This document shows, piece by piece, positions 24,278-27,145 of a stretch of DNA of 64,000 nt. Location: NCBI GenBank assembly GCA_021801125.1, contig JAJYYI010000114.1, positions 1 to 64,000 of the forward strand, read 5' to 3'. This DNA is from Deltaproteobacteria bacterium. GTDB taxonomy: Bacteria > Desulfobacterota > Binatia > Binatales > Binataceae. The notes beneath the pieces are model-generated. The model searched no databases. It was not told the origin of the DNA and saw nothing but the letters and a program-made list of their open reading frames with translations. The position numbers were made by a program, and so were the translations under genes. The stretch's first letter is position 1. The number at the start of each line of letters is the position of its first letter.

Positions 24278-25174
24278 TTAGGTCTGCTGAGTGGCGGGAG
24301 CAATCTGATTACCTTGCGCGTCGTATCGGTAGAAACCGCGGCCGGTCTTGCGTCCGAGAAATCCCGCGTCGACGTACTGTTTGAGCAACGGGCAAGGGCG
24401 GTATTTACTGTCGCCAAGCCCCTTATGGAGCACCTCCATAACCGCAAGACATATGTCCAGTCCGATAAAGTCGGCCAACTCAAGCGGACCCATCGGCTGA
24501 TTGGATCCGAACTTCATGCCGGTGTCGATGTCGAGAACACTGCCCGCGCCTTCATACAGCGCGAACACTGCTTCGTTGATCATCGGAATCAAAATGCGGT
24601 TCACGACAAAACCCGGATAGTCCCGCGCGGTTATAGCCATCTTATCCATCCGCTTGGCCAGGAATAGAGCCGTCGCATAGGTTTCGTCGGAGGTCGCAAG
24701 ACCACGCACTATCTCGACCAGCTTCATCACCGGCGCCGGGTTCATGAAATGGATGCCGATAAAGCGCTCCGCCCTCCCGCTGCGCGCTCCCATGCGCGTG
24801 ATCGAGATCGACGAGGTGTTGGAGGCGAAAATTACCTCGGGACGGCAAAAACGATTCAACTCTTGGAAAAGCGTCGCCTTAACCTTCTCATCTTCGACGA
24901 CGGCCTCGATCACAAGATCGGCTCTCGCCAAGTCTTTGAGTTCGAGCGTAGTGCTGACCCGCCTGAACAGACTGTCGCACGCTTCCCTGGTGATGCGACC
25001 GCGCGACACCGCGCGCTCGAGGCTGTTCGCGATTCGCTTCAAACCCTGCTCGCAAGCATCGCGATCAACGTCGGTCAGGAGCACCTCGAATCCGCTGCGA
25101 GCGGCGACCTCGGCGATCCCAGCACCCATCTGCCCGGCGCCGATCACGCCTATTACGTTTAGTTGATGGTTCAT
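24278..25174 (-). CDS. 3-hydroxybutyryl-CoA / 3-hydroxyacyl-CoA dehydrogenase
   Basis: [58 protein letters not shown]. Confidence 0.95.
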
Positions 25175-25428: not shown

Positions 25429-25941
25429 CTACGGCTGCTGTAGTCGAACCACGGTTTGCCCTGCGCTTTTCCACCCTTCGATCCCCTCGGGCATCACGCT
25501 GACGTCCTTGTATCCCGCGTCGACCGCCCGCCGGGCGGCCCTATGCGACGCCGTTCAGGCCTTGTCAAAACAGTAAAAAACCAGTTTTGCGGTTTTGTCG
25601 CGCGGCAGTTCGGTCGACACATCGTAAGCGCTTTCCGAGCTGAGCAAGACGGCGCCGGGGATAACGCCTTCCTGCTCTCGAACCGCGGAGAAGTTAGCGT
25701 CCAAAACGACCACTTTCGGTTGGTTGGACGCCTTCATGCGCACGAGATCGTTAACGTGAACTATTTTAAAATCCTGCTTGTCGGAGGAGCCCAACAACGA
25801 CGGAAGATCGAAGGCGCCGGCGGAAGGCGCCGCCGCAAGGAGGATCAGCACAAGGCCTAAGGTCACCCACGCACCGAACATCAATTCCCGTCGTCTGGCT
25901 CCCTGGGAGAGCCGCGCGCGGACTGTGACTCTTAATGGCAT
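25429..25941 (-). CDS. Rhodanese-like sulfurtransferase, candidate selenoprotein with in-frame TGA read as Sec (possible start also at 25881)
   Basis: Frame of ORF 25555..25941 continues past TGA (25555-25557): ...KTAKLVFYCFDKA-[TGA]-TASHRAARRAVDAGYKDVSVMPEGIEGWKSAGQTVVRLQQP* (TAG at 25429-25431). The region after TGA is typical rhodanese sequence, and TGA falls at the catalytic Cys position. Confidence 0.8.
25517..25557 (-). promoter_or_regulatory. Candidate bacterial SECIS element immediately downstream of UGA
   Basis: RNA sense: UGA ACG GCGUCG cauaggg CCGCCC GGC GGGCGG u CGACGC. Outer 6-bp and inner 6-bp stems, 3-nt apical loop starting with GG, 22 nt from UGA to loop. Confidence 0.7.
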
Positions 25942-26323: not shown

Positions 26324-27145
26324 ATGACCTCAACAACCGTCGCCTATTTTCTCTATTCCGCGGGAATCCTTCTACGTGAAGGCTTCGAAGCATTGCTTGT
26401 GGTCGTGGCGTTGGTGGCAGCCGTCAAGCAGCTACAAAATCGCCGCGCGATCAGGAGCATTTACTTTGGCGCGGCGGCGGCGGTTGTAGCCAGTTTAATT
26501 GTGGCGTGGTCGCTCGGCGATCTGCTCAGCGACAACGCAAGTGACGGCCTCGAGGGGATATTTCAGCTGATCGGCGCAGCCACCTTGCTTTACGTAAGCG
26601 CATGGCTGGGGATTCGCGGTCGGGCGGGGAATTGGAAGGCATTTATCAAGGCGCGGGTCGAACAGGCGACGTATAGTCACGCGCCGGCTGCGGCCCTGGC
26701 CTTGACCGCTTTCACCGCGGTGATGCGCGAGGGGGCGGAGACGATCGTCTTTTTCCAGGCGCTGTTGGCGGGAGCCGACCAGGGCACCGAGCGGCACGCC
26801 GTGATGGGTGGGATCGCGCTTGCCAGCGTAGGCTTGGTTGTGCTCGCGGTCCTTTTGCAGCGGGCCACCGCTTGGCTACCCGTCGGACGGTTCTTCAAGG
26901 TGACGTCGATACTGTTAAGCGCGCTTGCGGTGGTGTTTGTCGGGCAGGGAATCGCGAGCCTTCAGGAGGCTGGGCTCCTTCATGCCACGCTCATAGCCCA
27001 GGTGCCGACGGTAAAGATCCTGGGCCTGTTCCCGACCGTACAAAGCTTGAGCGCCCAGCTAACGCTGGTTTTGGTCGTTCTGAGTGTGGTTTTTATACAT
27101 CGTATCCGTGCCATCATGGCGCCGGCACCCGCATCCGAAGCCTGA
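26324..27145 (+). CDS. FTR1 family high-affinity iron permease
   Basis: Seven-TM profile with two REGxE motifs: LLREGFEALLVVVAL and VMREGAETIVFFQALL. Confidence 0.93.
   Translation: MTSTTVAYFLYSAGILLREGFEALLVVVALVAAVKQLQNRRAIRSIYFGAAAAVVASLIVAWSLGDLLSDNASDGLEGIFQLIGAATLLYVSAWLGIRGRAGNWKAFIKARVEQATYSHAPAAALALTAFTAVMREGAETIVFFQALLAGADQGTERHAVMGGIALASVGLVVLAVLLQRATAWLPVGRFFKVTSILLSALAVVFVGQGIASLQEAGLLHATLIAQVPTVKILGLFPTVQSLSAQLTLVLVVLSVVFIHRIRAIMAPAPASEA

Follow-up and report, generated by a model that had tools for sequence, protein, structure and literature searches.

An in-frame TGA codon in a rhodanese gene of a Binataceae bacterium is almost certainly read as selenocysteine

The 64,000-nucleotide stretch of DNA analyzed here (the window) contains a rhodanese-like gene, on the reverse strand, whose frame is interrupted by a single TGA at positions 25555–25557 (codon 129) and is open on both sides of it, from an ATG at 25941 to a TAG at 25429–25431. 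Is this gene broken, or is its internal TGA read as an amino acid? When the TGA is translated as U, the open reading frame (25429–25941, minus strand) specifies a 170-residue product with U129. The joined protein matches the Pfam rhodanese family (PF00581) over residues 71–159 with an E-value of 8.8e-11 and a score of 42.6 bits, compared to a gathering cut-off of 22.2, and this match spans the TGA, as anticipated by the original prediction of a rhodanese frame with one in-frame TGA followed by an open continuation. As set out below, the same TGA codon in 30 genomes, codon constraint specific to a downstream hairpin, purifying selection beyond the TGA, and selenocysteine (Sec) machinery in the genome argue strongly that the TGA is decoded as Sec. 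Thus, the window gene is almost certainly not broken and encodes a Sec-containing, probably exported rhodanese. Features of the gene and its neighbors are listed in Table 1.

Table 1. Coordinates of the candidate selenoprotein gene, its elements, and neighboring genes in the window.
Feature	Positions	Strand	Basis or remark
Whole candidate selenoprotein gene	25429..25941	-	ATG 25941, TGA (Sec) codon 129, stop TAG 25429-25431, 170 aa; Pfam rhodanese match across TGA; one of 30 TGA genes at same codon
Putative signal sequence at the N-terminus (residues 1-43), with apparent cleavage past AGA	25813..25941	-	Sequence reading and AlphaFold helix 20-36, low confidence
Cys124 codon, canonical rhodanese active-site Cys	25570..25572	-	Invariant in 43 sequences; position by codon arithmetic
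TGA codon 129, probably read as Sec, C-x4-U-x2-S motif	25555..25557	-	Sequence and homologue comparison
Putative bSECIS hairpin GCCGCCC-GGC-GGGCGGT	25523..25539	-	Loop 25530-25532; fold and family comparison
Lower helix GCGTCG/CGACGC beneath bSECIS hairpin	25517..25551	-	Present in window; family conservation partial
FTR1-family iron permease, divergent neighbor	26324..27145	+	Ordinary TGA stop; adjoins rhodanese only in same-genus G001 among genomes examined
3-Hydroxyacyl-CoA dehydrogenase, downstream neighbor	24278..25174	-	Context

A single in-frame stop in a single draft assembly can look like a nonsense-mutated, decaying rhodanese gene or a one-base sequencing error, and we therefore turn to the homologues, which were sought in 117 relatives and then in 151 genomes of the class. 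A close homologue was present in 40 of the 151 genomes. In 30 of them, the window genome included, TGA occupies exactly the window codon (families f1, f3, and f9), and 10 genomes carry only a Cys codon there. The Sec column reads TGC or TGT in 15 sequences, confirming the expected alignment of U129 with Cys, and residue 129 is Sec or Cys and nothing else in all 45 close family sequences. The codons that follow the TGA are under purifying selection (dN/dS of about 0.07–0.29 in six pairs), and members of the clade are intact rather than inactivated. An apparent TAG stop in the homologue from G072 proved to be merely its terminal stop. Decay or error would have to account for an identical TGA codon in 30 independent genomes, for purifying selection past that codon, for synonymous constraint specific to the hairpin, and for Sec machinery in the host genome; we give this explanation next to no chance and regard a pseudogene and a read error as excluded in practice. 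The conserved codon also upholds the earlier view that the gene is not a decayed one.

The host genome (3.50 Mb in 150 contigs, 96% complete, 4.2% contamination) contains selC, the tRNA-Sec gene (68.8 bits; ARAGORN anticodon TCA), selB (381.9 bits), and an adjoining selD (381.8 bits), together with selA in two complementary pieces at contig ends; all four genes were found, selA being split over two contig ends. The host selD likewise depends on Sec decoding of a TGA, which lies within the motif G-U-A-G-K and is followed by a hairpin, GGUCC-GGC-GGACC, with the same three loop bases as the hairpin of the window rhodanese. The TGA and GGC hairpin of selD are an internal positive control. This TGA-interrupted selD lies beside selB at G000:C30:35331-38330 (loci L102 and L009), and gene callers would truncate it too. 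An open frame with TGA as a residue would also fit TGA being an ordinary sense codon, for Trp or another amino acid, genome-wide. TGA terminates the nearby FTR1 gene at 27143–27145, however, indicating that the codon is not globally reassigned in the host. In addition, homologues carry Cys rather than Trp at the position, and tRNA-Sec is present; a sense-codon explanation is vanishingly improbable.

Of the 30 TGA genomes, 28 yielded a tRNA-Sec gene; among the 10 genomes with Cys only, 4 did so (Fisher p 0.001, for orthologues that are not statistically independent). No tRNA-Sec match came from G033, where the Cys form stands alone, but the gene is present in members of its genus that carry Sec copies. 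Among the TGA genomes, tRNA-Sec was not found in G042 (74% complete) or G061 (about 100% complete, 270 contigs); the G061 result may reflect an assembly gap or a loss of the machinery. Several tRNA-Sec genes can occur in one genome, with three matches in G035 and two in G013.

In the bSECIS model, a hairpin lies shortly after the UGA and presents a small loop that starts with G, roughly 16–37 nt from the UGA. The window RNA folds as the original prediction described, into a 7-bp stem with a 3-nt GGC loop starting 22 nt after the UGA (−23.7 kcal/mol), and agrees with this model in its loop, its spacing, and a loop conserved in the family as GGC or GUC (with one GGA). The fold energy of the window hairpin alone is unremarkable (z of −1.0; 36 of 200 shuffles were as good), so its significance comes from comparison among homologues and not from energy. 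In every TGA copy, some version of GCCGCCC-GNC-GGGCG occurs at this same distance from the TGA, with loops of GGC (n = 19), GUC (n = 10), or GGA (n = 1). At this site, 29 of the 30 TGA copies form a stem of 5 bp or more, compared to 4.1 expected when the codons of the same proteins are resampled synonymously, a difference between related sequences that does not amount to an exact probability.

Codon choice is more telling evidence for the hairpin than is helix covariation. Codon +7 is GCC in 30/30 TGA copies compared to 2/15 Cys copies; at codon +8, for the first Arg, TGA copies use CGG or CGT and never CGC (0/29), whereas CGC is used in 8/10 Cys copies; and CGG encodes the second Arg in 29/30 TGA copies compared to 2/9 Cys copies. 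Several Cys copies encode the same Ala-Ala-Arg-Arg-Ala yet mostly do so without the hairpin-keeping codons. In G042, where the first Arg has become Trp, TGG-AGG preserves the stem through a U-G pair. A 5-bp stem whose loop differs is also found in three Cys copies, because the GC-rich codons for Ala-Ala-Arg-Arg-Ala are self-complementary by nature. Covariation in the main 7-bp helix is weak, with compensatory double changes in 2 cells, owing to the strong conservation of the protein sequence; the lower helix, GCGTCG/CGACGC, is paired in 75.6% of cells in the family and shows slightly more covariation than the main helix. One homologue (G008:C20, locus L045) has a Cys codon at the Sec position with the hairpin codons largely kept (GCC GCC CGG CGG), and a genus mate has Sec; its sequence points to a recent Sec-to-Cys change.

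Which residue of the active site has been replaced? The TGA had been proposed to fall exactly at the catalytic Cys, a placement that did not hold. In profile alignments, Cys124 aligns with the conserved Cys of the solved rhodaneses 6mxv and 2hhg, and the Cys or Sec at position 129 falls in a short insertion in the active-site loop. The AlphaFold model has a rhodanese fold, with pLDDT >90 over most of the domain, in which Cys124 directly follows strand 119–123 and residue 129 just precedes helix 131–141; Foldseek matches to the model are rhodaneses (best 3nhv, E-value 5e-7). Thus, the invariant Cys124 is the canonical rhodanese Cys, and Sec129 is a second active-loop residue in the motif C-x4-U-x2-S. 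The product is probably exported by way of its signal sequence, and orthologues of family f9 have a lipobox-like L-x-x-C instead. With the sel genes, the Sec/Cys alignment, the conserved hairpin, and the intact clade members, these features support the predicted reading of an exported Sec-containing rhodanese with a bSECIS element.

Rhodanese selenoproteins had been expected to be on record, and a 2026 review catalogs five forms: UxxS, UxxG, CxU (NF041203), UxxG, and TsoB UxxxxU (NF045694) (PMC13188914). The first is a rhodanese-like selenoprotein in PF00581 with the motif UxxS and reference WP_010941598.1 (PMC13188914 Table 1). The window protein likewise has a rhodanese domain (PF00581) in which Sec is followed by x-x-S, as U-T-A-S, and by this motif it likely belongs to form 1. 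In most phylum relatives with a Sec rhodanese the frame is longer, sometimes encoding two rhodanese domains, whereas the window protein is small, single-domain, and probably exported. A phylum-wide profile search recovered larger FYC-x4-U-x2-S proteins in more distant genomes, each with its own hairpin; these support one broad putative C-x4-U-x2-S group across the phylum and put the window protein close to a form already in the catalog. One protein (G419:C211, locus L093) is a predicted double selenoprotein: it carries two rhodanese domains in succession, and both have their in-frame TGA at the same C-x4-U position, with identical hairpins. Another type, IYC-x4-U-L-R-(S/G)-G, in G168 and G306 (loci L123 and L110; genus g105), is a candidate Sec rhodanese.

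No NCBIfam model reached its cut-off for the window protein, and only five NCBIfam families matched across the 43 members of the family at E ≤ 1e-5. The best match of all models was the rhodanese/DsbD fusion-like selenoprotein TsoB (NF045694), at 44.9 bits over residues 51–164 compared to a cut-off of 805; the spacing of the chalcogen residues is the same, but the window protein has no DsbD part and has Cys rather than Sec at the first position (CxxxxU). The rhodanese-related (seleno)protein family rhodanese_LYCAU (NF041203, the CxU form 3) matched 39/43 family members weakly and the window protein at 39.0 bits compared to a cut-off of 115; the distance from Cys to Sec is two residues in that family and five in the window protein. 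TIGR03865, the PQQ-dependent catabolism-associated CXXCW motif protein, matched all 43 family members weakly, with the window protein matching its C-terminal part at 39.9 bits compared to a cut-off of 128. In a collection of genome contigs, the window protein found one remote Cys homologue, in a Sutterella MAG, and in a plasmid collection just a remote Deinococcus rhodanese.

For decoding, a SelB-GTP-tRNA(Sec) complex would bind the hairpin 22 nt past the UGA, so that Sec would be inserted at residue 129 and termination avoided, and the product would then be exported through its signal sequence. What Cys124 and Sec129 might do there can be proposed tentatively. The two residues share one active-site loop (C-x4-U), in which Cys124 may carry or receive sulfur, as a persulfide or in another form, and Sec129 may be a second, fast nucleophile or the resolving partner; a Cys124–Sec129 selenenyl sulfide would probably form and could be reset by a periplasmic thiol reductant. 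These assignments of chemistry are plausible rather than probable, and the sequence evidence for mechanism and biological role is weak. Low-molecular-weight phosphatases have a working C-x4-C pair, and by analogy the C-x4-U pair might make the window protein mainly a redox or (seleno)disulfide-exchange protein instead of a sulfur-transfer enzyme. The invariance of Cys124, the restriction of residue 129 to Sec or Cys in the 45 sequences, and the closest NCBIfam profile, rhodanese/DsbD-like TsoB with UxxxxU at the same spacing (PMC13188914), speak for this role, whereas the fold and canonical Cys are of the sulfurtransferase type and no conserved redox partner gene adjoins the rhodanese; we consider a mainly redox function a real possibility that falls somewhat short of an even chance.

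The neighborhood offers a weak functional hint for a rhodanese with paired Cys124 and Sec129. Beside the rhodanese of the window and that of its genus mate lie FTR1, 3-hydroxyacyl-CoA dehydrogenase, and flagellar genes. The iron and fatty-acid neighbors to which attention had been drawn are present but are common to this genus only; elsewhere in the family the recurring neighbor is an OPT-family transporter (PF03169), seen in 9 of 20 relatives examined and mostly just downstream. The OPT gene allows a guess at a thiol or peptide substrate. In the neighborhoods of the relatives examined, we found no redox partner gene conserved beside the rhodanese.

The history of the Sec/Cys position bears on why the TGA is kept. 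On a tree of 70 domains, the Sec/Cys state changes at least seven times, and three of these changes are forced by well-supported branches (from few columns). Four genomes of genus g7 (G007, G030, G035, and G039; loci L050-L053) have tandem Sec and Cys copies, which are followed by an OPT transporter where this was checked (G007); such a tandem is a possible selenium-dependent isozyme pair. These tandem copies, the repeated Sec/Cys changes, and the retention of most hairpin codons by G008 after its change to Cys are what would be expected if the UGA were mainly a selenium-responsive switch, giving full enzyme with selenium and a truncated, unfolded product without it, with a Cys paralogue taking over in some species. 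The window genome lacks a close Cys paralogue, however, its only other homologue being remote (E-value 3e-6), and most family members with the gene retain Sec, which suggests a catalytic advantage. We therefore consider a switch improbable as the main role of the UGA.

Taken together, the window protein is almost certainly, as judged from comparative sequence evidence, a real selenoprotein and a clear new branch of an already known kind of rhodanese selenoprotein. It is more doubtful that this branch is a distinct exported subfamily in which Sec, five residues past the sulfur-carrying Cys, joins it in a Cys–Sec pair for extracytoplasmic persulfide or thiol chemistry, which is often transcribed with an OPT transporter, and which in one genus has a tandem Cys isozyme as a backup that may be selenium-regulated. 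Across many genera of an uncultured lineage, a rhodanese selenoprotein has been retained that standard gene callers cut short and that falls under no NCBIfam model. Tandem Sec/Cys pairs, together with Sec-to-Cys replacements between close relatives, provide a good natural system for studying the benefit of selenium at the second position of the active loop, and the same system suits study of how SECIS constraint is gained and lost under a fixed protein sequence.
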